From a virus: a stretch of DNA of 64,000 bases. The translations under genes were made by a program, and so were the position numbers. The notes beneath the pieces are model-generated. The model made no database searches, was not told the DNA's origin, and saw only the letters and a list, made by a program, of their open reading frames with translations. Each line of letters starts with the position of its first letter. Within the stretch, counting starts at the first letter, position 1. The stretch spans positions 1-64,000 of the IMG/VR virus record IMGVR_UViG_3300021438_000014. One strand, given 5' to 3'. Shown piece after piece: positions 1 to 22,984 of this stretch.

Positions 1-298
1 TTCCGTATTTAAAGGCGTATTCAATAGCGCATATCCCCATGGAAGTGGCTATTGTTCCAAAAATCCCGATGATTGCTTGCTTAGTGGTGAGGTCTGATTC
101 TTCAGTTAAAAGATCTTTGACCATACTCTTTAAGTCACCATATCGATGTGACCCCTCTGAATTAGCATACCAAGGCAGCCATGGGGTTAATGCAATACTA
201 TTAGTCTTTTCAATGTCATTGACTACTGATTCTATATTTGGAATTGCGTTCTCGAAATATAGGATATTGTTGTAAACCTCTTTATAGGCAATGCCCAC
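1..298 (-). CDS. Partial protein, probable 2OG-Fe(II) oxygenase N-terminus
   Basis: An open frame runs from a GTG at 298 leftward off the window edge, giving the first 99 or so residues. An AGAGG ribosome site lies 7 bases before the GTG, inside the end of the upstream gene, so the start is well supported. The visible part resembles the N-terminal region of the neighbouring oxygenase at 301-1098: a 'YFENAIPNIESVV' stretch corresponds to 'LYENVIEDPRKLI' there, followed by a W-rich segment and a similar G-D-L patch. The catalytic double-stranded beta helix would lie beyond the window, so no HxD motif can be checked. The family call is inference from paralogy and operon position. Confidence 0.6.
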   Translation of the reverse strand, partial: MGIAYKEVYNNILYFENAIPNIESVVNDIEKTNSIALTPWLPWYANSEGSHRYGDLKSMVKDLLTEESDLTTKQAIIGIFGTIATSMGICAIEYAFKYG

Positions 299-300
299 AG

Positions 301-1098
301 TTATGCCTCTGGTGTTAAATACGGGTTTACAATTGGCTCGTACTGGGATCCTGCGTTAAAGAACTTACGAGACTCTTCATCATGTTGATCATAGTCTGGG
401 TGGAATACAAATCCAGGGAACATGTATTTATCTCCAGACTTCATGATGTGAACCTGATGCTTGTAGGGATGCGTAGACGGGAAGATCAATGCTGATCCAG
501 CCTTTGGCTTACGCCAGAAGTCAATTAGACCTGAATCCTTAGCATCCTCGATATCTTCTTCTGGCTTCAGTAGGTCATTCTTTGGGTCGCGGAGATCATA
601 GTCTCGAATGATGAATGAGATTTCCCCACCCTCGTAGTCTTCATTCAGATATAGAACAATAGAGTACTTCAAAGTACGGTCGCCAGCCTGGGCATCAAAG
701 TGGGCCCCCATTGCACAGCCTGGTCGATACTTCATGATTCCTACGAAAGGAGATAGATTTGGCTCATAATCGAACTCTCGGTCTCTAAAGTAAGCTTCCG
801 CTACCTTCTTAACACCTGAGCGAATCTGATCAATAATGTACTGAACATCTGCCTTATATTCCTCTGGAAGTTGGTCAACCAGATCAGGATTAAAATCTTT
901 TTTACCACCAAAAGTGTGACCATCATTGCTATTTGATAGCCACTTACCCCACTTAGGGATGACAGAGTAGACTTCCTCGACCGAATCAAGATCTTCAATC
1001 ATCTTAATGAGTTTACGAGGGTCCTCGATTACGTTCTCGTATAGGAAAACCTCTTCATGAAGTTTCTCAGCTAGGTGCATTTCTTTATTCTCTGACAT
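301..1098 (-). CDS. 2OG-Fe(II) oxygenase, prolyl-hydroxylase-like
   Basis: The C-terminal half carries the double-stranded beta-helix signature of 2-oxoglutarate/Fe(II) dioxygenases: HFD (H133, D135), 'LYLNEDYEGGEISF', an 'LIFPSTHPYKHQV' segment with the distal iron ligand probably H214, and K224 where many relatives have Arg. Lys at the 2OG-binding position is what collagen-type prolyl 4-hydroxylases use. The first 110 residues are a less conserved helical region. Such enzymes hydroxylate Pro, Lys, Asn or other substrates using O2 and 2OG; the substrate here is not shown. It sits second-last in the visible part of a minus-strand run of related genes downstream of the tail-fibre block. Confidence 0.85.
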   Translation of the reverse strand: MSENKEMHLAEKLHEEVFLYENVIEDPRKLIKMIEDLDSVEEVYSVIPKWGKWLSNSNDGHTFGGKKDFNPDLVDQLPEEYKADVQYIIDQIRSGVKKVAEAYFRDREFDYEPNLSPFVGIMKYRPGCAMGAHFDAQAGDRTLKYSIVLYLNEDYEGGEISFIIRDYDLRDPKNDLLKPEEDIEDAKDSGLIDFWRKPKAGSALIFPSTHPYKHQVHIMKSGDKYMFPGFVFHPDYDQHDEESRKFFNAGSQYEPIVNPYLTPEA

Positions 1099-1131
1099 GT
1101 ATATAATCCTATCTTAAGTATCTATTTGTAA

Positions 1132-1725
1132 TTAAAAGTCCCAAAAGGCCATAATGGTGTATCTAAATCCTGAGGTTACTTCCTTCACCCCGTGAATATT
1201 TTCAAAACCACCGGGAAAAACTAGTAAGTCATTCTTTTCCGGTTTTATCTCTAGGCCATGATCTGGGAAGTAGATCTCCCCGCCTGAGTAGTCAGAATTA
1301 GCATATAGTATAGATACATATTTCAACTTACTAAACTCAGATACATTGCCCTTGTAGTCTGAATTATCTGAGTGTGGGTCAGCTTGTCCACCTTTTGACC
1401 ACCGCTGGGCTTGTACATAGGTATCTAGTACAGGGTGTTCAAAGATACTTTCTACAGTTGATTTAAACTTTTTACTTAGGTTTAAAAAGTAATCCTTTGA
1501 AAGACCTCTAGACTCGAGGTTACTTTCCATATCTACTAAAGAGATTCCATAGGACTTATTGAATGATGTCTCGCTCCAAGGAAGTTCATCATTTTTTAAA
1601 ATATCCATAAGGATATCCAGCTCTTTTTCATCCAGGAAATCAGATATTCTAACTAGTCGATTAGTTTTAATACCCAACTTACTATCTAAAATAGGCTCAT
1701 CTTTGTAGTAAGTTATAGTATTCAT
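1132..1725 (-). CDS. 2OG-Fe(II) oxygenase
   Basis: A 197-residue P4Hc-type dioxygenase. Iron ligands are H118 and D120 (DPHSD) and H178 (NIHGV); R188 in 'SGFRY' is the expected 2OG-binding Arg. The 'SDYSGGEIYFP' strand pair is the family hallmark. The start overlaps the stop of the upstream gene by four bases (ATGA), indicating coupled translation with the oxygenase at 1722-2417. Substrate unknown; protein side chains of co-expressed tail proteins are an attractive but unproven target. Confidence 0.85.
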   Translation of the reverse strand: MNTITYYKDEPILDSKLGIKTNRLVRISDFLDEKELDILMDILKNDELPWSETSFNKSYGISLVDMESNLESRGLSKDYFLNLSKKFKSTVESIFEHPVLDTYVQAQRWSKGGQADPHSDNSDYKGNVSEFSKLKYVSILYANSDYSGGEIYFPDHGLEIKPEKNDLLVFPGGFENIHGVKEVTSGFRYTIMAFWDF

Positions 1726-2417
1726 TGAGGTTGACGTTCACCTGTGTGCTTGGCGATAGTCCAGAAAAATGGGCAAGTGTAGCGAATGCCTGATTCGATC
1801 TTCGTTACTCCATGGATGTAGTTCATATCACCAGGGAAGAAGTATGCAGCTCCACGCTTAGGCTTGAACTGAATTCCTTGGAGTGGGAAATACAACTCCC
1901 CACCCTCGTAGTCATCATTGATATAAAAGAGTCCAGCAATATCGTAGTAAGGGAAATCATTAGGGATACCGCGGTTAGGCTCTTCATGCAGTTCTTTGTC
2001 TGCATGGGGCATCTGCAACTGACCTGGAAGCCAGCGCACCATAGCCGGGCTAGTGGGGATTGCGTCAACCTGAAGGTACTTATCTACCTCAACCTTTAGG
2101 CGAGCTACCATTCCTTCAATAATCTTAGGAATCTCTTCACTAGTTTTACGGATCGTATCGTATGTGGCTACTCGATCCTTCCAGTACTCTGAGTCATAGA
2201 TTACGGTACCATCGTCATTGTAGTGAGTTTCAGTCACGTCCCAATATTCGTTATTACGAATGAAGGTATCTAAAGTAGTAATCTCTTCTTCAGTCATAAA
2301 GTTTTCTAGAGTAACAATGTTGTCAGGGGAGTTACCAAAGAATCCTGAAGGAGTTATAGAGACTCGGTCATTCATCGCGTGTTGGTTATTGGAGTTTTCG
2401 AACTCGTTATTCTGCAT
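1722..2417 (-). CDS. 2OG-Fe(II) oxygenase
   Basis: A 231-residue dioxygenase with iron ligands H138 and D140 (PHAD), H202 (YIHGV) and 2OG-binding R212 (SGIRY); the 'NDDYEGGELYFP' motif is complete. The region between HxD and the glycine-rich strand is extended by about 15 residues, consistent with a substrate-lid loop. It lies 13 bases downstream of the DUF6065-like gene at 2431 and overlaps the following oxygenase gene, so it belongs to the same transcription unit. Confidence 0.87.
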   Translation of the reverse strand: MQNNEFENSNNQHAMNDRVSITPSGFFGNSPDNIVTLENFMTEEEITTLDTFIRNNEYWDVTETHYNDDGTVIYDSEYWKDRVATYDTIRKTSEEIPKIIEGMVARLKVEVDKYLQVDAIPTSPAMVRWLPGQLQMPHADKELHEEPNRGIPNDFPYYDIAGLFYINDDYEGGELYFPLQGIQFKPKRGAAYFFPGDMNYIHGVTKIESGIRYTCPFFWTIAKHTGERQPQ

Positions 2418-2430
2418 AGTTATATCCTAG

Positions 2431-3162
2431 TTATCCGTAAATTCTTCTAGTCCAGACGGAGTTCTTGTATACTCCACCATCTCGTACTCGATACTTGGTT
2501 GAGTTATCATGGTTACTCTTAACCATAGTCTTGTAGTCAGGAACCGAGATCTCTGACTCCCAGTCCTCACGCTTGAAAGGGATGAGCTGAGCATAAGGAG
2601 TTCCAGCTGGTAGAATTCCAGTCCAACCTTCCTTAATAAAGAAAGGCATGGTTCCTGGTAAATTCACCTTATCATTGTCAATCACGCCATTAGTTGTCTG
2701 GAATGGTAGATCATACCGATTCAGTGGGTGAGTGTACAGAACGCTGTACCCCTCCGGAACTGATACGGCCCAGTCAGCCCACCAAGCAAAGTGCTTCTCG
2801 TGATAACCCATGGGGTGGACAAACTGAGGTAGTGGGTCTCGGGGGCCGCAGAAATCTTGGTTCTGAGGGTCTAATACTTTTACTGCAATTTGATTATTTG
2901 AATCTAGATAGAACTCTAGGTCACATGGTGTTTTATAGACATATCCAGTCATCATTACATCCATGATTGCTGGGCACGCCTTCCATGTAGGGATCTTCCC
3001 TTGCTGTGGGTGCTCCCATGGCTCGTTAGTCATTGGATTGATGGCAAACCGATCTGCTTTACGATACCAGTCTGGAATGTTTTTAGATGTGGGTTCAGGT
3101 GTTGACTTACTGTCTTTTTTAAGCCACGGGCGGTTAGCAATAAATTTAATCTTGTTGCTCAA
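2431..3162 (-). CDS. Conserved phage protein, paralogue of the DUF6065-like neighbour
   Basis: Function unknown. This 243-residue protein has an N-terminal 'IPDWYRKADRF' patch and many Trp/Pro residues, and its C-terminal half contains 'GILPAGTPYAQLIPF' followed by an acidic 'EISV' strand. The same arrangement ('FIPAGTPVAAVLPI ... LEIS') occurs in the protein encoded just upstream at 3146-3880, so the two are probably divergent duplicates with a beta-barrel fold. The genes overlap by 17 bases. Placement inside an oxygenase/glycosyltransferase operon suggests a role linked to the same modification; this is inference. Confidence 0.6.
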   Translation of the reverse strand: MSNKIKFIANRPWLKKDSKSTPEPTSKNIPDWYRKADRFAINPMTNEPWEHPQQGKIPTWKACPAIMDVMMTGYVYKTPCDLEFYLDSNNQIAVKVLDPQNQDFCGPRDPLPQFVHPMGYHEKHFAWWADWAVSVPEGYSVLYTHPLNRYDLPFQTTNGVIDNDKVNLPGTMPFFIKEGWTGILPAGTPYAQLIPFKREDWESEISVPDYKTMVKSNHDNSTKYRVRDGGVYKNSVWTRRIYG

Positions 3163-3880
3163 TCGTGGCTCCTGTCACTGGGCATGTAATGGTCTTCAAT
3201 TTAATCGATTTAGTTTCGTGTTTTCCGACGACTTCACCCTTGTAGTTCAAAGCATCTCGATACATTTTTGACCAGTCCCCGACACCATTTTTGATTTCTG
3301 CAGCATCTCCGTACTTGGTTACTTCTTCCCAGTACGCACGGTCAAGGAATTTATCTGAAATCTCTAGTTGATAGTCGCCCTCTAAGGCTCCTAAAGAGAT
3401 AGGGAGAACTGCAGCAACTGGAGTTCCAGCCGGGATGAATACTTCAATGTTTGGTTCCGTTAGACGCCAACCCAGAGGTAGTTCTGGCATATAGAATGAA
3501 GTACTAATCAGGGTTGTATAGCATTGAGCACCACGAATGAACTGATTTGGAACAGGCATCGATAGAAGGGTAGTGTTCTGATCAGTTTTAAACACTAAAC
3601 CTGATCTGAAGCTAATAGTCGCATTTCCGCGGCCAGTGTATACATACTCTTCCCCCTCGAGGACTTTGATGTGGGTGTCAGTAGTATCGGTAATTCCATC
3701 CCAGATGAAGCGAATATCCTTAGGGAACGATATTCCCCAGCCTAGTTTATTAGTCAGACTTACAGGGAAGCACATATATGCGTGCTTATCTGCAGTCTCG
3801 TCCATCCAGTCTCGTCTAGCGGTTAATGGTTCAATGTTTGCTACATTGTTTCCAGCCTTGGTTACAGTAATAGTCTTCAC
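3146..3880 (-). CDS. DUF6065-like protein
   Basis: A 244-residue protein starting at GTG 3880, whose G overlaps the TAG stop of the upstream oxygenase (TAGTG). The 'ARRDWMDETADKHAY' segment followed by 'CFPVSLTNKLGWGI' matches my recollection of the DUF6065 family (W-M-D-x-T then a hydrophobic N-x-x-GW stretch); that match was not tested by search. No enzymatic motif is evident. The C-terminus has a short Cys pair region (CPVTGATIE). It shares the PAGTP-type strand with its downstream neighbour, so both may use one fold. Confidence 0.6.
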   Translation of the reverse strand: MKTITVTKAGNNVANIEPLTARRDWMDETADKHAYMCFPVSLTNKLGWGISFPKDIRFIWDGITDTTDTHIKVLEGEEYVYTGRGNATISFRSGLVFKTDQNTTLLSMPVPNQFIRGAQCYTTLISTSFYMPELPLGWRLTEPNIEVFIPAGTPVAAVLPISLGALEGDYQLEISDKFLDRAYWEEVTKYGDAAEIKNGVGDWSKMYRDALNYKGEVVGKHETKSIKLKTITCPVTGATIEQQD

Positions 3881-4638
3881 TAGTTACCAGTCTCCTCGTA
3901 GAACTTAGGGTTGTGGAACTTCTCTGAGAAGTCAAGCATGGTAACCATCGAATATTTGACACCAGAGATTACTGGCATTGCACGATGCGGGTACATGAAG
4001 TTTGAAGGGAAGATATAAGTCTCTCCAGCCTTTGGTTTAATGGTTGCACCCTGTAGACGGAAGAACAATTCTCCACCTTCATAGTCATCATTAGGAAAGC
4101 TAACTAGAGATACTACGCAGTTGTATGAGTAGCCGTGGTCGTGGTGCTCCTGGAAGTGCTGACCTTCTCCATAACGAACGTAGTTAGTTGCTTCCCAGTA
4201 TCGAAGCTCTCCTACGTTGTATCGGCGGGTATAGTCCTTAACAGCTTGGAGTTGGCGATAGTTGACATCATCTGCCAACTCTTGTAGTGCTAGTCCAGCT
4301 TCTGACTTATCGTTGATAATGTCTGACTTTTTGTATTTAAAATCTACGCAATCACGGTATTCTGGCATTCGCATGGCATAGCCAACCATAGCCTCGGCGT
4401 ATGAGTAGTTATTGCTTGGATCAGCTAGCACTGTTTCCAGTCGCTCGATGATATTCATATCCTTTGGTAGGACATCTCGATATACCCAAATTCCTGACCC
4501 AGGGGCAACCTCTTCGCAGGATGTCCAGGTTTTCTCTTCGATGTTATACCAAGCTTTTAGACGTTCTTCTACTGTCTTCTGCTCTTGCTTACCTAGCTCT
4601 TCTATTTTCGCTGAGGTACTTACTATCTCTGGTTGCAT
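3880..4638 (-). CDS. 2OG-Fe(II) oxygenase, Lys-type 2OG site
   Basis: A 252-residue dioxygenase. The metal site is HHDHG (H165, D167) with distal H218 (YPHRA); the 2OG-binding residue is K228 (SGVKY), the Lys variant seen in collagen-type prolyl hydroxylases. 'NDDYEGGELFF' is intact. The first 140 residues form a charged helical extension. TAATG and TAGTG one-base overlaps join it to both neighbours, so translation is coupled through the operon. Confidence 0.86.
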   Translation of the reverse strand: MQPEIVSTSAKIEELGKQEQKTVEERLKAWYNIEEKTWTSCEEVAPGSGIWVYRDVLPKDMNIIERLETVLADPSNNYSYAEAMVGYAMRMPEYRDCVDFKYKKSDIINDKSEAGLALQELADDVNYRQLQAVKDYTRRYNVGELRYWEATNYVRYGEGQHFQEHHDHGYSYNCVVSLVSFPNDDYEGGELFFRLQGATIKPKAGETYIFPSNFMYPHRAMPVISGVKYSMVTMLDFSEKFHNPKFYEETGN

Positions 4639-5372
4639 TAGTATTTCAACTCATATTCCGTAATTACATGTGGTACTCGACGATTAACATTATCACGATC
4701 ATTGTAGTCGCTCATGATGACTATAGCGTACTTGGTTCCGTCGATCATATCTTCAGAGGCATGCTCATAGATAAAGATAGACGGGAATACTACAATATCT
4801 CCTGCTTTAGGCTTAATCTTCAAGCCATCCATTCGAGGGAAATAAATCTCTCCGCCTTCATAGTCATCATTCAAATAGATAACGATAGATACAGTACTGA
4901 CATAGGTTGGACCATGGTCAGCGTGAATCTTAAAGTGGGTACCCTTACCGGGATACTTTACAAAATTAAATGCCTCGAATGACTGCATCCCTACACCCCA
5001 GTAGCGCCCGTAGTCTGATACGCAGCTATACATGCTCTGAAAAATTTCTTCATGCATATCCAGAAGCTCGGCATTCTGAGGAGTTCTAGGCCCTAAATCC
5101 TTCGAGCCAAACTTAAAGTCTAGGGCATTTCTAGCTGAAACATCCGCCTCAGCTGAGTTGGTAACCATGGCACCCTGCCATTTGTAGGGTCCTGACCCAT
5201 CTAGCTTATTTTCGAGGGTTTGAATAAACTTTGCGCATTGCTCTGGTGTATAGGCGCCTCTATAGATATTTATACCTAGAGCTGGATTTAGTACGGTAAC
5301 GTTACCATACTGTCGATCTGGCATTCTATTAGATGAGGTCTCTGATCTATCTTTAGTGAACCAATCATTCAT
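4638..5372 (-). CDS. 2OG-Fe(II) oxygenase, Lys-type 2OG site
   Basis: A 244-residue dioxygenase with H150 and D152 (HADHG), distal H204 (YEHAS) and K214 (DGTKY) as 2OG-binding Lys. 'NDDYEGGEIYFP' is complete. It is the closest-looking relative of the enzyme at 3880-4638 (same HxDHG and GxKY forms), pointing to duplication. It is immediately downstream of the glycosyltransferase gene, which supports a hydroxylation-then-glycosylation order; that functional link is inference. Confidence 0.86.
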   Translation of the reverse strand: MNDWFTKDRSETSSNRMPDRQYGNVTVLNPALGINIYRGAYTPEQCAKFIQTLENKLDGSGPYKWQGAMVTNSAEADVSARNALDFKFGSKDLGPRTPQNAELLDMHEEIFQSMYSCVSDYGRYWGVGMQSFEAFNFVKYPGKGTHFKIHADHGPTYVSTVSIVIYLNDDYEGGEIYFPRMDGLKIKPKAGDIVVFPSIFIYEHASEDMIDGTKYAIVIMSDYNDRDNVNRRVPHVITEYELKY

Positions 5373-5388
5373 AGATCCAGTCTATACC

Positions 5389-6387
5389 TTATTCTAAAAT
5401 AATTGGCTCTAAAAGTCTAAAATCTTCTGCGTGTCTAGGTATACCTAAGTTGTTATAGTTTGGATTATATTCGCAAATTCTATGATCCATCCCTGACATT
5501 TTGCAATACTCTTCTACGGACTCTTTAGGGATGTCTCCATATATGCCTGTAAGTCTCCCTGATAGTAATAGATTTAGTTTCAACATTGAATCATCTGATT
5601 GTTTCCAGAAAGCATCTTTATTCATATCTGACCACGGGCGGTGGGTAGTCATTCTAGAGTGGATCTCGTCTGGGTACTCTTTGTATGTATTGTGGTAATA
5701 AAGGATTCTTGGTGTTGAATAGAAACGCCACCCGCGGCACCATGCTTGGATGGTTACATAAATCTCTTCACCGTGATAACACATATCCGGGTCTAGCGGG
5801 ACTTCATCTACAAACTCTTTAGGTGCAAATACCCAGCTGAGCTGTAGGTAGTAGTCTTCATGAACCGAACTATCCTCCGGAACTAGCTGAGTTCCCGGGA
5901 AACTATGGCCTGGAATATATCCTTCAGTTATGAATGGTCTATAGCTATTTTTTACTCGTCCTGCTCTAGAAGTATAGCTAATGCTCCAGTCTGAATTCAT
6001 CTCGTACTCTGGCCCAGAGACCGTGAGTAGCGCTTTAGGATTTATTTCTTTTGCTTTTTCGTATTCCTCTAGAACTATAGTGTCCCAGCCTTCGGCAAAT
6101 AAGTTGTGCCCGCAGGTATAGAGAATATAGTCATATTCTTCAGATACTTCTGTTGTCTTATCCCTAGACCAAAGTACCCCTCTATATTTTGAGAGATCGT
6201 ATTTTCTATAGACTAGCTGACCCTCAGGGATGAAACTTAGGTCTGCATGAAGCTCTGGCTTACTTTGCTCCGATACAATCGAGAATATTAGATTCCCTGG
6301 CTTAGCTGCCTTCTCATAGCAATCTCTAACTGACTCAGCTAGTTGACGCTCGCGATAGGCGATCATTGAGACAAGTATTTTTGTCAT
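5389..6387 (-). CDS. Glycosyltransferase resembling the hydroxyproline GlcNAc-transferase family (PF11397-like)
   Basis: A 332-residue cytoplasmic glycosyltransferase of GT-A type. The N-terminus 'ILVSMIAYRERQLAES' followed by 'CYEKAAKPGNLIFSIV' matches the start of the GlcNAc family whose founder glycosylates hydroxyproline on Skp1. Further family landmarks are 'YRGVLWSRD' (68-76), 'GHNLFAEGWD' (93-102), 'VPLDPDMCYHGEE' (196-208) and a late 'YYHN'. The usual DxH sugar-nucleotide/metal site appears as C92-G93-H94, so the first acidic residue is replaced by Cys. Its start overlaps the end of the upstream gene (ATGA). The donor sugar cannot be read from sequence. Confidence 0.75.
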   Translation of the reverse strand: MTKILVSMIAYRERQLAESVRDCYEKAAKPGNLIFSIVSEQSKPELHADLSFIPEGQLVYRKYDLSKYRGVLWSRDKTTEVSEEYDYILYTCGHNLFAEGWDTIVLEEYEKAKEINPKALLTVSGPEYEMNSDWSISYTSRAGRVKNSYRPFITEGYIPGHSFPGTQLVPEDSSVHEDYYLQLSWVFAPKEFVDEVPLDPDMCYHGEEIYVTIQAWCRGWRFYSTPRILYYHNTYKEYPDEIHSRMTTHRPWSDMNKDAFWKQSDDSMLKLNLLLSGRLTGIYGDIPKESVEEYCKMSGMDHRICEYNPNYNNLGIPRHAEDFRLLEPIILE

Positions 6388-7178
6388 AGAGGTATATATC
6401 CTTCAACATTCTTAATAAAGTCTATACCTACAACAGTGCATTGCTGACATCCAGGACATTCCTTATTACCTTCCGGTAAGTCGTTAAAGTATGGCCCATG
6501 CCCGGAATGCTCGTAATATCTTATGTCACCATCGAGCTTATACTTCTTCATAGCCTCTGCGTACTGGATATTTCCTTCTTCGGAGTAGCAATCAATGTCA
6601 TAAATCCAGTGGTCTTTAGTTGCATAATTAGCAAAAAGAACTGTTACGTAAGCTTCTTCATCGTCTACTGGATATCTAGGCCGAGTATGTACCTGCTGTT
6701 GGCCCATAAAAAAGATTCCGCTATTATTTTGCTCCTCGAAACGCTCACCATCAATTGAGAGCCCCCAGCTCGGAACTCGATGTGATTCCACGCAAATATC
6801 CGCTGTGTATTGAGTAGCTGGTTGATCCATGTGCTCCCAGATGTATGGGGTTATTCCCTTATATTGCTGGTATCTGGCTACCCAAACTATTTTTAGTCTA
6901 AGTTCTGGTAATCCCCATTGTTCTTTTCCTAGATTCTCTAGGTACTCCCAGACCTCTGGTGGAAAGTCTACCTCTGTATGCCATCTACCGAGGATGTTGT
7001 GATACGGAGTTGCATTAGGTTTATTTTCTGAACCTGGTCCCCAGTTTGCTTGTTCATCAATAGTTGTTTTTACCTTATTCAAAATATCTTTAGTAAATAC
7101 ATTTTCTAGATAAAAAGCTGGCTTGCCTTCTGGAAGCTTCCATTTAATGTTTGGACTAGTATCAGCGTGTATAGGCAC
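6384..7178 (-). CDS. Divergent 2OG-Fe(II) oxygenase-like protein with C-terminal Cys cluster
   Basis: A 264-residue protein starting at GTG 7178 behind an AGGAGAG ribosome site. A probable dioxygenase core is visible: HMD (H116, D118), 'WGLSIDGERF', then 'QQVHTRPRY' giving distal H164 and R166/R168. This form resembles the proteins at 25810 and 26673 rather than its operon neighbours. The C-terminus has C241, C244 and C247 (CPGCQQC), likely a metal site, unique among the window's oxygenases. It is the first gene after the terminator behind the tail-protein gene, so it opens the modification operon. Confidence 0.65.
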   Translation of the reverse strand: MPIHADTSPNIKWKLPEGKPAFYLENVFTKDILNKVKTTIDEQANWGPGSENKPNATPYHNILGRWHTEVDFPPEVWEYLENLGKEQWGLPELRLKIVWVARYQQYKGITPYIWEHMDQPATQYTADICVESHRVPSWGLSIDGERFEEQNNSGIFFMGQQQVHTRPRYPVDDEEAYVTVLFANYATKDHWIYDIDCYSEEGNIQYAEAMKKYKLDGDIRYYEHSGHGPYFNDLPEGNKECPGCQQCTVVGIDFIKNVEGYIPL

Positions 7179-7196
7179 AATCTCTCCTGGGAATGC

Positions 7197-7227
7197 TAAA
7201 AGAGGAGCAGATTTCTCTGCCCCTCTT
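7197..7227 (-). terminator. Rho-independent terminator after the FN3/Phe-Pro tail gene
   Basis: On the minus strand an 11-bp stem (AAGAGGGGCAG pairing with CTGCTCCTCTT, one G-U) is followed by TTTT. It separates the tail-fibre genes from the oxygenase operon, though read-through is possible because only about 20 bases separate it from the next GTG. Confidence 0.8.
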
Positions 7228-7244
7228 CTAGGTTATATCTTTTT

Positions 7245-8210
7245 TTATTCTTCGTCTTCTTCGACTTCAGATTCCTCTTCCATCATACTCGGATCAATAG
7301 AGAAGATTCCAAAGCGTGGTGGGAATGAAGGTGGGAAGAACGGTGGGAAGAACGGTGGGAAGAACGGTGGGAAGAACGGTGGGAAGAATGGGAAGTAAGG
7401 GAAGAACGGTGGGAAGAACGGTGGGAAGAATGGGAAGTAAGGAGGGAAGAACGGTGGGAAGAACGGTGGGAAGAACGGTGGGAAGAATGGGAAGTAAGGA
7501 GGGAAGAACGGTGGGAAGAACGGTGGGAAGAACGGTGGTGTAGTAGAGATAGTATTAGTGGTTACAGTAGCCGAGTTACCATTTGCGTTAGTGGCATAGA
7601 GGCTAAAGTACTCATTTGTTCCACCTGGAACGGGGGTATCGTAGTATACAGCGCTAGTAGGAGTGCCGCTATTGGCTAGGGACCCTACTCCGATGACGAT
7701 AGGAGTATTTGGGGCTAGCGATGGAACCAGCGTAGTTTGAGTAATAGCTGAACCACCAGTTGCTCCTACAGTCCAAGCAATTCGGTCAGAGTCAGCACTT
7801 GGCGAGCTTAGGGCTGGCGACTGAGGAGCTTGAGGAACAGTAGTAACTGCAACTGAAGATGATGTTACTGCATTAGAATTTCCAGCAGCATTCTTTGCAA
7901 CTACAGAGAATGTATATGAAACTCCAGAAGCAAGACCTTCAAACACAAACGGTGCACCACCAGTAGGTAGTGTAGTTGTATTCTTAGTTACAGTTGCTGG
8001 GGTTGAAGTGATGTCATAGCTTGTTGCTGCTGGAGATAGTGCTGGAAGGGTCCATACTAGGTTTACAGCACCACCCTGACCATTAGTTCCGGTAGCTACA
8101 GCAAGGTATGGTCGGTTAGTTCCAACGTTAGTTGCAGTTGTGATTGTTACATCATTAGGCTGTAGGAAGTCATTCTGTGACTGTGAGTGTCTACCAGCTC
8201 TTTTTGCCAT
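7245..8210 (-). CDS. Tail-associated protein with two FN3-like domains and a Phe-Pro repeat
   Basis: A 321-residue virion-type protein. Residues about 36-125 and 126-222 look like two fibronectin type III domains (W-T-x-P, Y-x-F/Y-S-V strands, 'N-x-x-G-x-S' loops). Residues 225-299 are a low-complexity run of PPFF units with occasional PYFPF, followed by an acidic tail (308-321). The start follows a TTAAGAA-rich site near the fibre gene upstream. FN3 domains on phage tails usually contact the host surface. The Phe-Pro run is very unusual and offers about 35 prolines to a prolyl hydroxylase; the next genes encode such enzymes. Virion location is inferred from position. Confidence 0.75.
   Translation of the reverse strand: MAKRAGRHSQSQNDFLQPNDVTITTATNVGTNRPYLAVATGTNGQGGAVNLVWTLPALSPAATSYDITSTPATVTKNTTTLPTGGAPFVFEGLASGVSYTFSVVAKNAAGNSNAVTSSSVAVTTVPQAPQSPALSSPSADSDRIAWTVGATGGSAITQTTLVPSLAPNTPIVIGVGSLANSGTPTSAVYYDTPVPGGTNEYFSLYATNANGNSATVTTNTISTTPPFFPPFFPPFFPPYFPFFPPFFPPFFPPFFPPYFPFFPPFFPPFFPYFPFFPPFFPPFFPPFFPPFFPPSFPPRFGIFSIDPSMMEEESEVEEDEE
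7318..7535 (-). repeat. Tandem 12-base coding repeat
   Basis: On the plus strand the unit GGGAAGAACGGT recurs many times, interrupted by GGGAAGAATGGGAAGTAA variants at three roughly regular places (near 7381, 7425 and 7486). It encodes the PPFF/PYFPF run on the minus strand. The near-identical units suggest recent expansion or homogenisation by slippage. Confidence 0.95.
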
Positions 8211-8227: not shown

Positions 8228-11200
8228 TTAAGCTGACAGGTCTCCGTAGACCAACCAGGTGTTTGCTGCACGCTTTAGTAGTGTAGCAGATGACCACTGA
8301 GTGCGAAGCTTCAGACCTGGAGTAGCATTTACGGTAACTCCACCGGCACCAGCAATTGTTACCTGACCTGTTGAAGTCTGAATAATATCAATTGTAGTGC
8401 CTACTGGGAAGTTCAATGTTGAGTCCAGAGGAATAGTTAGAGTAGTGGCTGATGTATTAGCAACTTCAATGATTGTGTCACGCTCAGTTAGTGCGCTTAG
8501 GGTGTATGAAGCGCTCTTACCCGAGATAGTAGTAATTGAAGGAACGCCAGCAACAGTTTGAACTGACCCATCTGAGAATGTAACTCCACCGGAAGCGAGG
8601 CTGATTGTCTTGTTGGTGAGGGTCTGAGTTCCAGTTAGGGTTGCAACCACTGCAGTATCAATACCGATAGTCACAGCGCTTGAACCGTTGTATGAAGTTC
8701 CGGTTAGGCCGCTGTTGATGGTAAGAGTGTTTAGGTTACTTCCTAGGGTGATACCTGAGATGGTTGATGCTGCAAGCTTAGAAACTGCGATAGCAGCTGA
8801 GTCTGAAATATCGCCATTAACAATGGTCCCGTCCAGGATCATTGCTGAAGTAACAGTTCCAGTTGGGAGGGTTACAGTTCCTGTAAAGGTTGGACTGGCC
8901 GTTGGAGCCTTTGAATCAATCTGAGTCTGGACTGCCGAGGTTACGCCATCAAGATATTGGAGCTCGGTGTTTGAGACATTTCCAATAGTTGCAGATGTTG
9001 CCTGCAGAGCACCAATCTTTAGAGTGTCATAGGTAACTCCAGTGAAGTCGACTACGCTATCTGTTGGTTCGGTTGCTCCAGATACTAGCTTCCATACTCC
9101 ATCGGAGGCATCGCGGACAAGACCAGTGTGTGGGTGGTTAGAGCTGTTGGTTCCACCATTACCGTAGGCACCATAAATACCTATATCTAAAATATCAGCT
9201 GAATACTGCGAGTCAGCTAGGTAGATAAGTGAGTCAGCTACTGCAAGGTTAGTACTATTTACAATAGTTTGGGTTCCGGTGACCGTTAGGTTAGCAGTAG
9301 TTAGGTCAGTTGCATTAACTGTAGGGGCAACAAGAGTTCCAGTGAAGGTTGGGCTAGCTAGGTTAGCCTTAAGATCCAAAGCAGTCTGAGTTGCAGTAGA
9401 TACTGGCTTATTGGCATCCGATGTATTATCTACGTTAGCAAGACCAACCATTGACTTGGTAATTCCGGAAACGGTACCGGTAAAGGTTGGGTTTGAAGTA
9501 GGTGCCTTAGAATCCAACTGAGTTTGGATTGAAGATGTTACTCCATCTACATATCCGATCTCGGCGGCAGATACTGTACCGATAGATGTAGTTGCAGGAA
9601 GAACTACAGTTCCAGTAAGTGTTGCGTTGGCAAGTGGTGCCTTTAGGTCAAGTGCAGCCTGCTGAGCAGTTGATACAGGCTTGCCAGCATCCGAAGTGTT
9701 ATCTACGTTGCCGAGTCCTACCATAGCCTTAGTTACACCGGAAACGGTTCCTGTGAAGGTTGGTGACTCGATCGGTGCGTAAGTTGCTGCAATAGAGGCT
9801 GTGCTTAGCTTTGAATCAAGCTGAGCTTGAATGCTTGAAGTAACACCATCTACATAGCCTAGCTCGGTTGCAGATACGTTTCCGATAGAGGTTGCTGCTG
9901 GTAGAACTACAGTACCGGTAAAGGTTGGGTTTGAAGTAGGTGCCTTCAAATCTAGGGCAGATTGGGTTGCTGTAGAGATTGACTTATTAGCATCTGAGGT
10001 GTTGTCAACATTAGATAAACCAACCATTGCTTTGGTAATACCGGAGGTTGTTCCGGTAAATGTGGCATTGGCAGTCGGGGCCTTGCTATCAAGCTGAGCC
10101 TGAATACCTGAGGTAACACCATCTACGTAACTAATCTCTGACGCTGACACATTGCCAATTGAGGTAGTGGCAGGGAGAACGACAGTTCCAGTTAGAGTCG
10201 GGGAGTTAATGTCTGCCTTGAGAGCTATCGAGTTGTTGATAGTGGTTTGGTCGGCAGTTGTTAGAAGGAGTGCAGTATTAGCAATACCATGTACGTTGGT
10301 AGTCGTAGTGTTGTGGGTGTCGATGTCTGACTTAGTTGCAAGTGCTGCAGTATTTGCGATACCGTGCACGTTTGTGGTGTCTAGGTTGTGGGTATCGATG
10401 TCTGAGAGCATCGCTAGATCGGCAGTATTAGCGATACCATGTACATTTGTAGTATCGCTTGTGTGTGCATAAAGAGTTGATGAAACAACTAGGTCGGCAA
10501 CATTAGCAATACCATGGACCTCGGTGGTTTGGGCCATGTGATATGCCATCATATTGTTGGCATAGTTCTCTAGCTGAGCTGTTAGATCGGTAATCTCTGT
10601 AGAGGTTGTTCCAGCATATGGAAGAGCAGTCCAGTGGGAGGTACCATTACCGATCTTGAACTTACCGGTATTTGACTCTAGAACGAAGCTGCTTGCCTCA
10701 GGTACTGCATTAGCAGAAGTCAGGTTGGCGGCAGTGTCTACAACAAGAGTTGCCTTAGTTGCAATGTTATTAGCAACAGTAGTGGAGAAGTTAGGGTCAT
10801 CTCCAAGAGCTGCGGCCAGTTCATTTAAGGTATTTAGTAGGTTTGGTGATGAATCTACTAGCGCAGAGATGGCTGAGTCAGCGTAAGCCTTTGCTGCTGA
10901 TTCAGCAGTATCTGCCTTGGTCTGAGCGCCAGTCTTAGTTTCGAGGGCAGCAGTGTTTGCAATACCGTGAATATTAAGAATTGAAGAGTTGTGGGCATAT
11001 AGCTCTGAATCTGTATATGACTCTGCAGTGGAAACTCCAACATCTACCCTATTCTGAGCACCAGTCTTAGTCTCTAGTTCGTTTGTATCAGCGATGCCGT
11101 GAACGTTAGTGTGTGAGCTGCTGTGTGCTGAGACTGTATTTGCAAGGTCAGCAATTAATGCATCAACCTGACTAGGTAGATCGGTTGCATATCCGAGATC

Positions 11201-11338
11201 AGCCCAAGCGAGGCCGGCTCGACCAATTTTAAACTTGCCAGAGTCTGACTCAAAGCCGACTTCACCATCAGAAAGGGTAGGGTTAGTTGAGGTCCAGTTA
11301 GCGGCAGTACCGCGTCTAAGCTGAATCTTAATTGCCAT
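8228..11338 (-). CDS. Large tail-fibre protein with repeated shaft modules
   Basis: A 1,036-residue fibre. The N-terminus 'IQLRRGTAANWTSTNP' with 'GEVGFESDSGKFKIG' is the module seen at the start of many phage tail fibres and appendages. The middle has two repeat families: 'T-x-NVHGIANTAAL' units (about residues 75-375) and 'FTGTVVLP-x-x-TSIGNVSA' plus 'YVDGVTSSIQAQLDSKAP' units (about 380-830). The last 200 residues are beta-rich with a 'TIDIIQTSTGQVTI' strand common in fibre tips. It overlaps the upstream fibre gene by one base (TAATG). Host receptor binding is the likely role. Confidence 0.85.
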   Translation of the reverse strand: MAIKIQLRRGTAANWTSTNPTLSDGEVGFESDSGKFKIGRAGLAWADLGYATDLPSQVDALIADLANTVSAHSSSHTNVHGIADTNELETKTGAQNRVDVGVSTAESYTDSELYAHNSSILNIHGIANTAALETKTGAQTKADTAESAAKAYADSAISALVDSSPNLLNTLNELAAALGDDPNFSTTVANNIATKATLVVDTAANLTSANAVPEASSFVLESNTGKFKIGNGTSHWTALPYAGTTSTEITDLTAQLENYANNMMAYHMAQTTEVHGIANVADLVVSSTLYAHTSDTTNVHGIANTADLAMLSDIDTHNLDTTNVHGIANTAALATKSDIDTHNTTTTNVHGIANTALLLTTADQTTINNSIALKADINSPTLTGTVVLPATTSIGNVSASEISYVDGVTSGIQAQLDSKAPTANATFTGTTSGITKAMVGLSNVDNTSDANKSISTATQSALDLKAPTSNPTFTGTVVLPAATSIGNVSATELGYVDGVTSSIQAQLDSKLSTASIAATYAPIESPTFTGTVSGVTKAMVGLGNVDNTSDAGKPVSTAQQAALDLKAPLANATLTGTVVLPATTSIGTVSAAEIGYVDGVTSSIQTQLDSKAPTSNPTFTGTVSGITKSMVGLANVDNTSDANKPVSTATQTALDLKANLASPTFTGTLVAPTVNATDLTTANLTVTGTQTIVNSTNLAVADSLIYLADSQYSADILDIGIYGAYGNGGTNSSNHPHTGLVRDASDGVWKLVSGATEPTDSVVDFTGVTYDTLKIGALQATSATIGNVSNTELQYLDGVTSAVQTQIDSKAPTASPTFTGTVTLPTGTVTSAMILDGTIVNGDISDSAAIAVSKLAASTISGITLGSNLNTLTINSGLTGTSYNGSSAVTIGIDTAVVATLTGTQTLTNKTISLASGGVTFSDGSVQTVAGVPSITTISGKSASYTLSALTERDTIIEVANTSATTLTIPLDSTLNFPVGTTIDIIQTSTGQVTIAGAGGVTVNATPGLKLRTQWSSATLLKRAANTWLVYGDLSA

Positions 11339-13143: not shown

Positions 13144-13461
13144 TTATGAGAGATGAGCTTTTCCAGAAATTGCCTCTGAAAAAGATATGGTTAGTTGAGT
13201 TTCATTGATATGTGTCACTGTTCCTTCTATCTGCGATTCCCCACTGTCAAAGACAGTCACATTTGGAAAGAAGTTTAAATTGTGCAGTACAGTCCAGATT
13301 GTTGCCGGAGTGCTTTGTAGATGCCTATAAGAAACTAGGGGTACAATTTCACTGGCAGCAATACCGTTAGTTCCAGCTGGACCTTGGGGTCCGGGGGCGG
13401 AGACTATGATTTGGCGAACATATTTACCGGATGCGACACTACTCGCTACATCTCCAGCCAT
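13144..13461 (-). CDS. Small virion protein with a short collagen-like patch
   Basis: A 105-residue protein with an 'APGPQGPAGTNG' patch near residue 27, i.e. three Gly-Pro-X type triplets, followed by a beta-rich domain ('TVLHNLNFFPNVTVFDSG') of a kind common in phage fibre and baseplate proteins. The TAATGG junction couples it to the gene upstream. The Gly-Pro triplets are candidate sites for prolyl hydroxylation. Confidence 0.7.
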   Translation of the reverse strand: MAGDVASSVASGKYVRQIIVSAPGPQGPAGTNGIAASEIVPLVSYRHLQSTPATIWTVLHNLNFFPNVTVFDSGESQIEGTVTHINETQLTISFSEAISGKAHLS

Positions 13462-20794: not shown

Positions 20795-21131
20795 GGGGAT
20801 GATCGGATTCGACGGTCATTCGAAAAACTAGTGAAGCAAGCAGAGAAGCCTGTACCTCTTGAATCGGGCAACCAAATAAATGCAAACTCACGTTCAGCAT
20901 TCGCACTAGCTGCTTAGTAATAGGTAACTAGTACCCCTGACAAAGCACCAGTTCTAGGTGGGCAGTCAGGTTTTAAATAAGTAGAACAAACCCGCACCAC
21001 GTCCATGCTGGAGACGTAAAACTGAAGCACCACAGGATGTGGCAGTTCGGTCCTGGAAATATAAACTGCCTAAGCTTGTAGAAGAATAGTTTGTCTTTGA
21101 TCGGACGGGGGTTCAATTCCCCCCATCTCCA
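20795..21131 (+). ncRNA. ssrA: tmRNA (trans-translation RNA), tag ANSRSAFALAA
   Basis: The 5' end GGGGATGATCGGATTCGACG and the 3' end with T-arm GGTTCAATTCC and CATCTCC form the tRNA-Ala-like domain; the acceptor has the G3-U70 pair that alanyl-tRNA synthetase requires. The tag frame at 20882-20917 reads ANSRSAFALAA and stops at TAG; the LAA end is the proteolysis signal. The 3' CCA is not encoded (CTA follows). Phage tmRNAs are known in some actinophages. The tag is shorter than those I recall from actinobacterial hosts. SmpB is not seen in the window and would come from the host. Confidence 0.95.
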
Positions 21132-21249
21132 CTATTCCGTACTCTGAAACACGACATATGGGCGTGGTAGGTAAATGGTCCAAGGTACGGTAGGACAAGT
21201 GCTAGAGGGAGCCTTCCGGACGGTGGGCGGACCTCTAGGGCTAAATAAT
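21132..21249 (+). other. Unassigned structured stretch between tmRNA and tRNA-Asn
   Basis: No coding frame. Paired segments are visible: CCGTAC (21137) with GTACGG (near 21185), CACG with CGTG, and GCTAGAGG (21199) with CCTCTAG (near 21232). It does not fold as a tRNA. It may be a spacer RNA or a small ncRNA. Confidence 0.4.
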
Positions 21250-21321
21250 GCCCCTTAGCTCAATTGGCAGAGCAGCGAGCCGTTAACTCGAAGGTTTGTT
21301 GGTTCGACTCCAACAGGGGCA
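21250..21321 (+). tRNA. tRNA-Asn (GTT)
   Basis: GCCCCTT pairs with CAGGGGC; anticodon loop CCGTTAA gives GTT; T-arm GTTGG-TTCGACT-CCAAC. Discriminator A; CCA is not encoded. Confidence 0.92.
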
Positions 21322-21505
21322 GCGCAAGATAGAAATCTGAATAATTTCTATGACTGCTATCTGTATGCGAAACCGACCCTGGTGGAGCCATAGATGCAAA
21401 CTGGTGAGGACATTCAGGTCCGGAGCCTGCAGCGACCATCTAGCATATAGAGCTCTTGGCGACAGCTTCCAGCATGCAAAAAACTGGTGAGCACGAAGAG
21501 CGAAT
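21322..21505 (+). other. Structured spacer with a repeated motif
   Basis: Contains an 8-bp perfect hairpin (ATAGAAAT / ATTTCTAT), a GGAC-ATTCA-GTCC hairpin, and two copies of a TGCAAA-ACTGGTGAG-like motif (near 21393 and 21477). No tRNA or convincing ORF is found. Confidence 0.35.
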
Positions 21506-21591
21506 GGAAGATTGCCGGAGCGGCCGAACGGAACAGTCTTGAAAACTGTCGTGGTTAATAGCCACCGTGGGTTCAAATCCCACATCTTCCT
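21506..21591 (+). tRNA. tRNA-Ser (TGA)
   Basis: GGAAGAT/ATCTTCC acceptor, anticodon stem ACAGT/ACTGT with loop CTTGAAA (TGA), and a long variable arm (GTGGTTAATAGCCAC) as expected for Ser. CCA is encoded at 21592-21594. The discriminator appears to be T, unusual for Ser. Confidence 0.92.
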
Positions 21592-21596
21592 CCACT

Positions 21597-21668
21597 TGTC
21601 CCATGGTGTAATCGGCAACACTACGGTTTTTGGTACCGTCATTCTAGGTTCGAGTCCTGGTGGGACAG
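21597..21668 (+). tRNA. tRNA-Gln (TTG)
   Basis: TGTCCCA/TGGGACA acceptor, anticodon stem ACGGT/ACCGT with loop TTTTGGT (TTG), T-arm GGTTCGAGTCC. Only two bases after the CCA of tRNA-Ser. Confidence 0.92.
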
Positions 21669-21699
21669 CAGTTAAAAATAAAAATAAGAATTTCTAACA

Positions 21700-21916
21700 T
21701 TTCTAATAAAAGTGTGTTAGAGTATAGACAACAAGATTTCGACGGAAATCTTGGAGTATGGCTGAATAACCTGCAAAGCTATATGGGGCAGGTAAGGCAG
21801 TGGCGGATCTTAGCGGATCGTCTTAGCGGACAAACGTCATGTGGGCTCAAAAGCGGATCTACTGGACCGTAATAGCTAGGCCCTGGTGGTAAAAAGCATT
21901 CCACCTATTCACACTA
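21700..21916 (+). ncRNA. Candidate non-coding RNA upstream of a strong terminator
   Basis: No supported ORF. Contains GATTTC-GACG-GAAATC hairpin (21737), three AGCGGATC/AGCGGACA repeats (21802-21858) and ends in a strong terminator. It resembles a transcribed structured RNA; boundaries are guesses and no known family is recognised. Confidence 0.4.
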
Positions 21917-21962
21917 AACACCCTGGAACAAGCTCGAAAGAGTGCCAGGGTGTTTTATTTTT
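21917..21962 (+). terminator. Rho-independent terminator
   Basis: AACACCCTGG pairs with CCAGGGTGTT, with an inner AGCTC-GAAA-GAGT extension, followed by TTATTTTT. Confidence 0.9.
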
Positions 21963-21977
21963 AACTGTATTTTTAGT

Positions 21978-22006
21978 TTGACTTCATGAATAAGTTATGT
22001 TAATCT
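21978..22006 (+). promoter_or_regulatory. Sigma-70-type promoter
   Basis: TTGACT, a 17-base spacer and TAATCT, just downstream of a terminator and upstream of tRNA-Gly. A further TATAAA-type box is at about 22120. Confidence 0.6.
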
Positions 22007-22149
22007 AATCTACTAACCGTGATGATGTATTGCAGTCAGCATATCCCACGTCCCCTAAAAAGGAAATAACGTCGGAGGACCATTTTCGCGAATTGGTGTA
22101 GCGGTGACTATGAGAATGATATAAAATAAAAGTAGCTGGACGCAGCTAC

Positions 22150-22220
22150 GCGGATATTGCATAATGGTAGTGCCTCATCCTTCCAAGTTGAAGGTGCGAG
22201 TTCGATTCTCGCTATCCGCT
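22150..22220 (+). tRNA. tRNA-Gly (TCC)
   Basis: GCGGATA/TATCCGC acceptor, anticodon loop CTTCCAA (TCC), T-arm GCGAG-TTCGATT-CTCGC. CCA is not encoded. Confidence 0.9.
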
Positions 22221-22403
22221 CGGTGCTTTGCACTTGGTTAAAATGCTACATGTACAGGTTTCGCAAGGAGCCACATCGCCATCTTCGCGGGATGGGTTAG
22301 GGGTGTGTAGGGATCGTGACCCTAGAAACTACGGAGTAATCGAGAAGGTTGTGCCAACAACTGAGGGGCTGGTTTCCGGTCTAGGTTATTTCATTGGCGA
22401 TTA
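22221..22403 (+). ncRNA. Candidate structured RNA between tRNA-Gly and its terminator
   Basis: No ORF is supported. Hairpins are visible: CCATC-TTCGCG-GGATGG, AGGG-ATCGTGA-CCCT and GTTGT-GCCA-ACAAC. It could be a co-transcribed trailer or an independent ncRNA; no family recognised. Confidence 0.4.
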
Positions 22404-22436
22404 AACTCCATGCCCGGGAAGGCGTGGAGTTTTTTC
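22404..22436 (+). terminator. Rho-independent terminator
   Basis: AACTCCATGCC / GGCGTGGAGTT 11-bp stem followed by TTTTTCTTT. Confidence 0.92.
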
Positions 22437-22459
22437 TTTATCTGTAGTAATGTAGTCGC

Positions 22460-22888: not shown

Positions 22889-22905
22889 CTGTAGACTGAT
22901 GGACA

Positions 22906-22979: not shown

Positions 22980-22984
22980 CTCAC

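Follow-up and report, generated by a model that had tools for sequence, protein, structure and literature searches.

The window analyzed here, a 64,000-nucleotide stretch of viral DNA, opens with a run of oxygenase-like genes and a glycosyltransferase gene beside the gene of a probable tail protein with a long Pro-Phe repeat. What do these enzymes modify? A sequence-only reading had proposed that the phage hydroxylates and then glycosylates its own fibers or host proteins. Our analysis suggests that the enzymes most likely serve to hydroxylate the repeat protein; a sugar on hydroxyproline is plausible, but the case for it is weaker.

The repeat protein and its neighbors

The proposed substrate is encoded at 7245-8210 on the minus strand. 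It is a probable tail protein of 321 aa with an Fn3 domain (PF00041, 25.8 bits, cut-off 25), a (PPFF)n run and acidic sequence. The run, described earlier as holding about 35 prolines, was counted and has 36 Pro and 34 Phe codons. Thr and Ser are nearly absent from it, but the Fn3 part of the protein does carry them. A (PPFF)n protein was found at the equivalent position in seven related records (L003-L007, L492 and L494). All 12 PPFF units of the window gene are identical 12-mers and therefore point to a recent DNA expansion, so that the regularity of the run in this gene is no sign of selection on the protein; this was counted against the modification reading. A BLAST search of INPHARED, in which low-complexity sequence is masked, found no match to the PPFF protein.

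Upstream of the repeat gene lies a tail-fiber-like protein with an Mtd_N domain (8228-11338, minus strand; PF18454, 2.5e-15). The nearby protein that had been called collagen-like (13144-13461) did not live up to that name, since it holds a single GPQGPAG and had no match in a Pfam profile search. The window's phage has a longer record, L003, and in its sequence past the contig end lies a genuine collagen-like gene (PF01391, E 9e-42). Collagen-like genes also follow the module in L004, L493, L494 and L495.

Oxygenases of the window

Seven oxygenase-like genes had been noted, all on the minus strand, and six of these were supported as 2OG oxygenases. Four scored above the PF13640 cut-off of 27 bits in the Pfam profile search: 301-1098 (3.8e-10), 1132-1725 (6.5e-10), 3880-4638 (1.1e-12) and 4638-5372 (1.1e-11). 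The gene at 1722-2417, of a type seen in 73 loci, falls slightly below it at 26.4 bits and matches phrog_61 at 1.1e-17. The contig end cuts the gene at 2-298, leaving an N-terminal part that had no 2OG match of its own in the Pfam profile search. It is 100% identical over 99 aa to a complete copy, L003:16090-16740, which matches PF13640 at 1.7e-15. Weak Tet_JBP matches below the cut-off were also seen in the Pfam profile search of the window.

The seventh gene, 6384-7178, encodes an oxygenase-like protein of 264 aa that stands beside the glycosyltransferase in the window lineage. Its HxD and H are invariant among 14 family sequences, but a Pfam search of the protein gave no 2OG match, hhalign gave a probability of 0.1 against the 3880 type, and a PDB sequence search yielded no useful match.

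Three of the genes were said to have the Lys of collagen-type prolyl hydroxylases. A Lys at the 2OG position could indeed be read in the sequences at 301, 3880 and 4638 (the genes at 1132 and 1722 are of the Arg type), but the term "collagen-type" reads too much into one residue. The enzyme at 3880-4638 belongs to the commonest oxygenase subfamily of the module (74 loci). In an alignment of 43 sequences (A3), H165, D167, H218 and K228 are invariant, corresponding to the HxD...H iron triad and the basic 2OG residue. Its predicted model (pLDDT 93) was compared with known structures, as had been proposed, and the best fits were prolyl hydroxylases (3gze, E 1.2e-10 and Z 18.1; 6f0w, Z 18.3). The top match of a PDB profile search with the 3880 type was the B. 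anthracis P4H (1.7e-6). Judged by the model, this enzyme folds like a P4H, and its residues for iron and 2OG are intact. The enzyme at 4638-5372 belongs to a WFTKDRSET subfamily, a member of which is the first oxygenase encoded after PPFF in 33 of the 40 loci of this type. Specificity of this type for GT60 modules was rejected, as only 10 of the 40 had a glycosyltransferase call.

Oxygenase genes beside the Pro-Phe repeat

The link between 2OG oxygenases and the Pro-Phe repeat protein is tight, directional and reciprocal. Loci were chosen from IMG/VR by DNA pattern alone, with at least 120 loci per pattern. Among the matches listed, a 2OG oxygenase lay within 3.5 kb downstream of the PPFF pattern in 58/70 loci and upstream in 0/44, counting from the pattern position with no ORF filter, in loci whose sequence extended 3.5 kb or more on the examined side. 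The downstream values for control repeats, again among the matches listed, were 4/49 for GPT, 2/57 for GPP and 5/63 for PTPT. Collagen-like proteins were therefore rejected as the main oxygenase substrate, and Thr-Pro proteins as the main partner. Individual collagen-like cases do occur, such as L497, where a GPP-rich ORF is followed 43 bases later by a 2OG gene.

The HMM used for these counts was derived from this module, and a whole-record search with PF13640 served as a check independent of it. PF13640 was present in 26 of 31 PPFF records (25 above the cut-off) and in 5 of 33 controls. These sets were picked by hand from 120 PPFF and 360 control loci among the matches listed; many of the picked PPFF records were short or had no local 2OG gene, and the picked controls were long records. 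The remaining five PPFF records had no PF13640 match. A mixed set of nine PPFF-pattern records, eight DUF6065 records and the window's phage was positive in 18/18.

When an in-frame ORF was required, 94 of 120 PPFF, 107 of 120 GPT and 100 of 120 PTPT loci were counted among the matches listed, with 26 PPFF loci having no in-frame ORF left after the filter. No 2OG gene was found within 3 kb in 10 of 59 in-frame PPFF loci among those matches. The length of the repeat, for which 74 of 120 GPP loci were also used, had no effect on oxygenase linkage among the matches listed (p 0.46) and was ruled out as a predictor.

The reverse test started from DUF6065, a protein of the module described below. 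Of 244 loci found, 80 were kept and 48 of these used, in records of at least 13 kb. The exact FFPPFFP pattern was found in 39 of the 48, and in the 23 of these whose positions were checked, it lay 0.8-4.0 kb upstream of DUF6065. Of the other nine records, three end at a contig edge, and six (one of them L491) have a Pro/Phe repeat of variant form upstream of DUF6065. Thus, a Pro/Phe repeat lies upstream of DUF6065 in 29/29 position-checked records.

The dUTPase-fold proteins

Two related proteins lie among the oxygenase genes on the minus strand. The one at 3146-3880 is a DUF6065 protein (PF19541, 3.3e-27) with a predicted dUTPase fold. Its model (pLDDT 86.5) matched a dUTPase with Z 11.9, an rmsd of 4.9 over 126 residues and a Foldseek E of 1.4e-4. 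The conserved catalytic Asp motif of dUTPases was looked for in the sequence alignment (A4), whose invariant or near-invariant columns hold no Asp. A PDB sequence search gave no useful match for DUF6065, and an INPHARED search gave no match. Its paralogue at 2431-3162 (phrog_7084, 2.4e-33) aligned to the DUF6065 family with an hhalign E of 2.6e-7 and keeps an IDND stretch (alignment A8) that we take to resemble dUTPase motif 3. Elsewhere in the window, an ordinary-looking dUTPase could be read from the sequence at 22460-22888.

A GT60-family glycosyltransferase in some modules

The glycosyltransferase at 5389-6387 (minus strand) had been likened to the family that acts on Skp1 hydroxyproline. 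A profile check, which could have pointed to an unrelated family, confirmed membership in PF11397/GT60 (E 8.2e-21; 75.3 bits, cut-off 21). The protein contains DPDMCYHGEE, and HGEE is kept in 8 of 9 members of its subfamily, with HAEE in L494. A PDB sequence search with the protein alone or its profile had no useful match. The DxH motif, whose metal-binding role is known from ppGalNAc transferases, is replaced by CGH in 9/9 aligned members of this subfamily. DxH is present in the 13 other aligned sequences and, by a crude regex tally, in 208 of 245 glycosyltransferase calls. The distal His is kept, as H232 is invariant in 16 sequences.

The window-type enzyme is flanked by the PPFF gene and 2OG oxygenases in 9/9 loci resolved upstream, some of which are near-duplicates. 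GT60 was present in 5 of 94 in-frame PPFF loci among the matches listed and in 7 of 48 DUF6065 records. The replacement of DxH by CGH and the lack of GT60 in most PPFF modules speak against a simple Skp1-like picture. Other viral GT60 groups differ in their surroundings. In group A5, 35 of 80 loci had a Thr/Ser-Pro repeat no more than 5 kb away, a count biased by seeding mainly from PTPT loci, and 1 of 80 had a 2OG gene. Since these enzymes have Thr/Ser-Pro repeats close by but hardly any 2OG genes, GT60 alone does not signify hydroxyproline. In group A6, 58 of 80 loci had neither a PPFF nor a PT repeat within 5 kb, and a 2OG gene stood alongside in 6 of the 9 loci with PPFF and in 11 of the 13 with PT. 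The neighborhood count kept 70 of 79 bacterial loci. A second GT60 of the window's phage lies near a collagen-like gene (L489).

Spread of the cassette

The gene order of the window is repeated in L004-L007, where glycosyltransferase identity is 62-73%, and it is therefore not due to chance. Repeat and oxygenase occur together in phages of five TerL groups that resemble each other marginally or not at all, and the cassettes themselves are related across these carriers. Nor do the PPFF loci count as independent. Single-linkage grouping of 59 of them, among the matches listed, left 51 clusters at a nucleotide identity of 90% (of which 41 mostly had 2OG), 9 at 70% (6 with 2OG) and 5 if any 500-base match counts (2 with 2OG). 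L008 and L009 hold an analogue, in which an ORF rich in Thr-Pro (30% Pro) is accompanied by a 2OG protein and by a GT60 that carries a fused, weakly matching domain of HPAT (hydroxyproline arabinosyltransferase). Among 49 records searched, only L008, L009 and L010 had an HPAT match.

A possible function for the module

We favor the prediction that the module is a protein-modification system for a phage tail protein, with hydroxylation followed by glycosylation in the GT60 subset. Its oxygenases quite probably hydroxylate the repeat protein. The enzymes downstream of (PPFF)n, chiefly of the 3880-4638 and 4638-5372 types, would act on the prolines of the run and possibly on Phe/Tyr as well. The unmodified rod would be extremely hydrophobic, and hydroxylation could make it stiffer and more soluble before virion assembly. 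In the GT60 subset, including the window's phage, a sugar, perhaps GlcNAc by analogy with the family, may be added to the new hydroxyls, because the run offers almost no Ser or Thr. That this glycosyltransferase modifies hydroxyproline is possible but somewhat doubtful. The DUF6065 and phrog_7084 proteins may be accessory, perhaps as chaperones that hold the substrate. What is inferred here comprises all of the chemistry, the residue that would accept the sugar, the place of the repeat protein in the virion and the part given to the accessory proteins.

The glycosylation step is where another explanation competes most closely. The oxygenases could hydroxylate the repeat protein while GT60 directly glycosylates Ser/Thr, mucin-type, in the Fn3 part or in nearby collagen-like GPT/GAT fibers, with no hydroxyproline-sugar step. 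The Fn3 part offers usable Ser/Thr, collagen-like genes follow several modules and one lies beside the second GT60, the A5 enzymes accompany Thr/Ser-Pro repeats almost without 2OG genes, and GT60 includes Thr-acting T. cruzi enzymes, according to the accessible portions of PMC3769586 and PMC8724618. We consider this unlikely, however, given the position of the window-type enzyme between PPFF and oxygenases in all nine resolved loci, the 2OG genes beside A6 enzymes and the seeding bias of the A5 count.

Two further explanations would detach the oxygenases from the tail protein. They could be passengers of a hypervariable tail-fiber region with host proteins or small molecules as targets, their link to PPFF reflecting shared cassette ancestry rather than function. 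The collapse of the PPFF loci into few clusters fits this, as do the nine 2OG copies scattered across the genome of cyanophage S-SZBM1 in the available part of PMC9146016. Yet the cassette is retained in five dissimilar TerL groups, collagen-like and Thr-Pro repeat genes of the same collection do not have the link among the matches listed, and the repeat precedes DUF6065 in every position-checked record, which makes this distinctly improbable. Still less credible is a role in repair or base hypermodification, in which the oxygenases would act on DNA or nucleotides, the dUTPase-fold proteins on the nucleotide pool and the glycosyltransferase on hydroxylated bases. The same part of PMC9146016 proposes a DNA-repair role for phage 2OG oxygenases, and the weak Tet_JBP matches, the fold of DUF6065 and the IDND stretch would agree with it. 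Against this stand the two-way linkage to a repeat protein beside tail genes, the prolyl hydroxylases at the top of the fold matches, the separate dUTPase gene and the fact that characterized GT60 enzymes modify polypeptides, as described in the accessible portions of PMC6939170 and PMC8724618.

If the repeat protein is the substrate, proline hydroxylation, sometimes with hydroxyproline glycosylation, would be a common route to phage tail parts. The linkage gives the puzzling oxygenases of many uncultured aquatic phages a likely substrate, and it points to a specific protein and a PPFF peptide that can be tested in vitro. A more tentative picture, which we doubt more than we credit, is a widespread, horizontally exchanged cassette that builds a Pro-Phe tail rod rich in hydroxyproline and, in some of the phages, glycosylated. 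This would be an extensin counterpart in prokaryotic viruses, with a hydroxylase array, dUTPase-fold accessories and GT60, which in one distant phage is fused to HPAT. Such a rod would provide a common purpose for much of the 2OG-oxygenase expansion in these phages. We found no such tail-protein hydroxylation/glycosylation module in the open-licence PMC literature, and the part of PMC9301287 available to us calls the viral use of prolyl 4-hydroxylase cryptic.

Comparison with known systems

Cyanophage 2OG-Fe(II) oxygenases share the PF13640/phrog_61 family with the window enzymes, but local identity reached at most 41.8% and no record had 80% coverage among the matches listed. The INPHARED set also had no match to DUF6065 or the PPFF protein. 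Chlorovirus PBCV-1, which infects a eukaryotic alga, encodes a viral P4H, vCPH, of the same fold class (5c5t, Z 16.4 to the 3880-4638 model); the phage module differs in its clustered oxygenase arrays. The mucin-type GT60 enzymes of T. cruzi and Dictyostelium, which add alpha-GlcNAc to Thr according to the accessible portions of PMC6939170 and PMC8724618, belong to the family of the window enzyme, and the viral A5 group resembles them in lying near Thr/Ser-Pro repeats. In the window, by contrast, the Pro-Phe run nearly lacks Thr/Ser and oxygenases adjoin the glycosyltransferase.

The Skp1 pathway of Dictyostelium and Toxoplasma (PhyA, then Gnt1 of GT60) shares with the module a prolyl hydroxylase-like enzyme and a GT60-family transferase, and PhyA is needed for Gnt1 activity in the portion of PMC6939170 available. 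Its substrate is one Pro, whereas the proposed phage substrate is a repetitive Pro-Phe tail-type protein. The proposed system is also phage-encoded, has arrays of many oxygenases and carries CGH for DxH. In the hydroxyproline-rich glycoproteins of plants and algae, P4H is followed by HPAT. For the window's phage, a profile search of its longer record (G001) found no HPAT, and the motifs are Ser-Pro/extensin in plants and algae but PPFF in the phage module. The likeness lies in the distant phage L008, with its Thr-Pro protein, 2OG protein and GT60-HPAT fusion, and in the core oxygenase of the module, whose top Foldseek match was an algal P4H with (Ser-Pro)5.

Gene content and order of the module

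The source record of the window in IMG/VR is 66,650 bases long, of which bases 1-64000 were used. On the minus strand, a tail-fibre-like gene with an Mtd_N domain (8228-11338) precedes the PPFF protein (7245-8210), which lies after the tail-fibre-like genes, is 321 aa long, and combines an Fn3 domain with a run containing 36 Pro and 34 Phe. Downstream follow, in order, an oxygenase-like gene (6384-7178), the PF11397 glycosyltransferase (GT; 5389-6387), two Lys-type 2OG oxygenases (4638-5372 and 3880-4638), DUF6065 (3146-3880), the phrog_7084 protein (2431-3162), and additional 2OG oxygenases (1722-2417, 1132-1725, 301-1098, and 2-298, the last truncated at the contig end). In L003, a record of 124,826 bases that covers more of this phage, the module continues into further oxygenases, and two collagen-like genes are also present. 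The run in the window contains 12 PPFF units that are all identical at the DNA level, which shows recent expansion rather than selection. Away from the tail region, 2OG oxygenases at 23089, 27220, 29507, and 52744 matched PF13640 (regions 23089-30106 and 52744-53445), and the first of these regions also holds two 6384-like proteins (25810 and 26673). A tmRNA and ten tRNA genes were found at 20795-25794.

Four related records (L004-L007) share the order of repeat protein, 6384-type gene, GT, two Lys-type 2OG oxygenases, DUF6065, phrog_7084, and Arg-type 2OG oxygenase; L005, L006, and L007 are mutually close, and L007 stops inside the Arg-type gene, the last of the shared order. The same module order was seen in L491-L494. 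A small 6384-like gene is inserted after the GT in L492-L495, and L495 begins at the 6384-type gene. The relative L496 has no GT60 gene and retains the repeat, one 2OG oxygenase, DUF6065, phrog_7084, and more 2OG genes. Therefore, the hydroxylase/DUF6065 part is the core of the module, and the GT and 6384-type gene look like an addition to it.

Linkage of oxygenases to the PPFF repeat

IMG/VR was scanned with the PPFF DNA pattern alone, which gave at least 120 loci, and with three control repeats in the same way. With a 2OG HMM derived from the module itself, 58 of 70 PPFF loci had an oxygenase within 3.5 kb downstream and 0 of 44 had one upstream, among the matches listed. The corresponding counts, also among the matches listed, were 4/49 and 0/68 for GPT, 5/63 and 1/68 for PTPT, and 2/57 and 2/71 for GPP. 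An earlier PPFF count with in-frame ORFs and a 3 kb limit gave 49/59 downstream and 0/35 upstream among the matches listed. Independently of the module-derived HMM, PF13640 matched 26 of 31 whole PPFF records (25 above the cut-off) compared to 5 of 33 control records. When the PPFF loci were clustered by single linkage, loci with an oxygenase were in the majority in 41 of 51 clusters with 90% identity as the limit, in 6 of 9 with 70%, and in 2 of 5 when a match of any identity counted; the controls at the 70% limit gave 4/40 (GPT), 3/35 (PTPT), and 2/33 (GPP). The PPFF loci are thus related, and counting them as independent would overstate the linkage.

Terminase (TerL) proteins from 16 records were compared by blastp. 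The window lineage comprised eight records at 74-90% identity, and among the 16 records the TerL proteins of this lineage, L042, and L038 had no match outside their own group. One weak match (23%) was shared between L061/L080 and L058/L079/L037, and L033 matched the latter group at 19-33%. An oxygenase lay within 3.5 kb of the repeat in five TerL groups (window lineage, L042, L038, L061, and L058/L079); none was found within that distance in L033.

The linkage was also seen in reverse from DUF6065. Of 244 relatives found, 80 were kept, and the count used the 48 with a record length of 13 kb or more. The exact FFPPFFP pattern was present in 39 of the 48, with 8 for the reversed-pattern control. 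For the 23 records with listed positions, it preceded DUF6065 by 0.8-4.0 kb. Five of the nine pattern-less records had a Pro/Phe-repeat ORF (PPYF and PPGFFAPP variants) upstream of the oxygenases and DUF6065, a Pro/Phe repeat was seen in a sixth (L491), and the remaining three start too near DUF6065 to show an upstream repeat.

Several other features of repeat loci were observed. A small Cys-rich protein (L025:4533-4775; DUF6171, 26.2 bits, cut-off 27) recurs 3' of PPFF in 18 loci. Some of the PPFF proteins L083:8063-9304, L110:5879-6847, and L051:1082-1762 have weak, sub-cut-off intein-splicing matches after the run, and that of L051 carries an S74 chaperone domain. A marine Kyanoviridae virus (L497:4461-6699) has a GPP-rich collagen-like ORF with a 2OG gene 43 b downstream.

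Predicted activities of the module enzymes

The 3880-type oxygenase was present in 74 loci, and H165, D167, H218, and K228 were invariant across 43 sequences. Its top PDB profile match was the B. anthracis prolyl 4-hydroxylase (P4H; 1.7e-6). The structures nearest to its model (pLDDT 93) were prolyl hydroxylases, namely algal P4H with (Ser-Pro)5 (E 1.2e-10), PHD2, and chlorovirus vCPH. Structure comparison of the predicted DUF6065 model gave a dUTPase fold, and the phrog_7084 protein is a DUF6065 paralogue.

The putative P4H-like enzymes most likely hydroxylate the Pro-Phe run. Over 97 segments, these runs were about 90% Pro and Phe and about 2% Ser/Thr, with 26 segments containing no Ser/Thr. 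Because of this composition, a GT that acts within these runs would in most cases depend on hydroxyproline or Tyr as its acceptor.

GT60 glycosyltransferases and known systems

Judged from its sequence, the predicted GT of the window clearly belongs to the GT60 family. Its subfamily retains an HGEE-like motif as well as the distal His. At the position of DxH in the 13 other aligned sequences, it has CGH in 9/9 aligned members; a crude regex matched DxH in 208 of 245 GT calls. A second PF11397 gene of this phage (L489:5012-5965, E 9.3e-36) adjoins a small Cys-rich gene and is near a collagen-like gene.

Viral relatives were found in other surroundings. In the A5 group, seeded mostly from PTPT loci, 35 of the 80 loci (L701-L780) had a Thr/Ser-Pro repeat no more than 5 kb away, and 2OG was present in 1 of 80; bacterial A5-like loci gave PT in 10/70 and 2OG in 0/70. 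Within 5 kb in the 80 loci of the A6 group, PPFF was found in 9 (6 with 2OG), PT in 13 (11 with 2OG), and neither in 58 (7 with 2OG). In L008 and L009, the GT60 is fused to a weak hydroxyproline arabinosyltransferase domain (23.6 bits in one search and 25.8 in another, cut-off 23.9) and is accompanied by a 2OG protein and an ORF rich in Thr-Pro (L008:7976-11890). Apart from the GT, no ORF of these two loci matched any window protein. By our reading, this group appears to sit a few genes ahead of a tail-sheath-like gene.

Judged from listings of the open-licence literature, we found no paper on proline hydroxylation and glycosylation of phage proteins, and a published account describes viral use of P4H as cryptic (PMC9301287). 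Gnt1 of Skp1 is a GT60 enzyme that requires prior hydroxylation (PMC6939170), and mucin-type O-glycans are also initiated by GT60 (PMC8724618; PMC3769586). The A5 enzymes near Thr/Ser-Pro repeat proteins could possibly be a mucin-like phage system. Overall, the surroundings of the viral GT60 genes are compatible with a family whose members may act on Thr directly or on hydroxyproline once a hydroxylase has acted, without proving either route.
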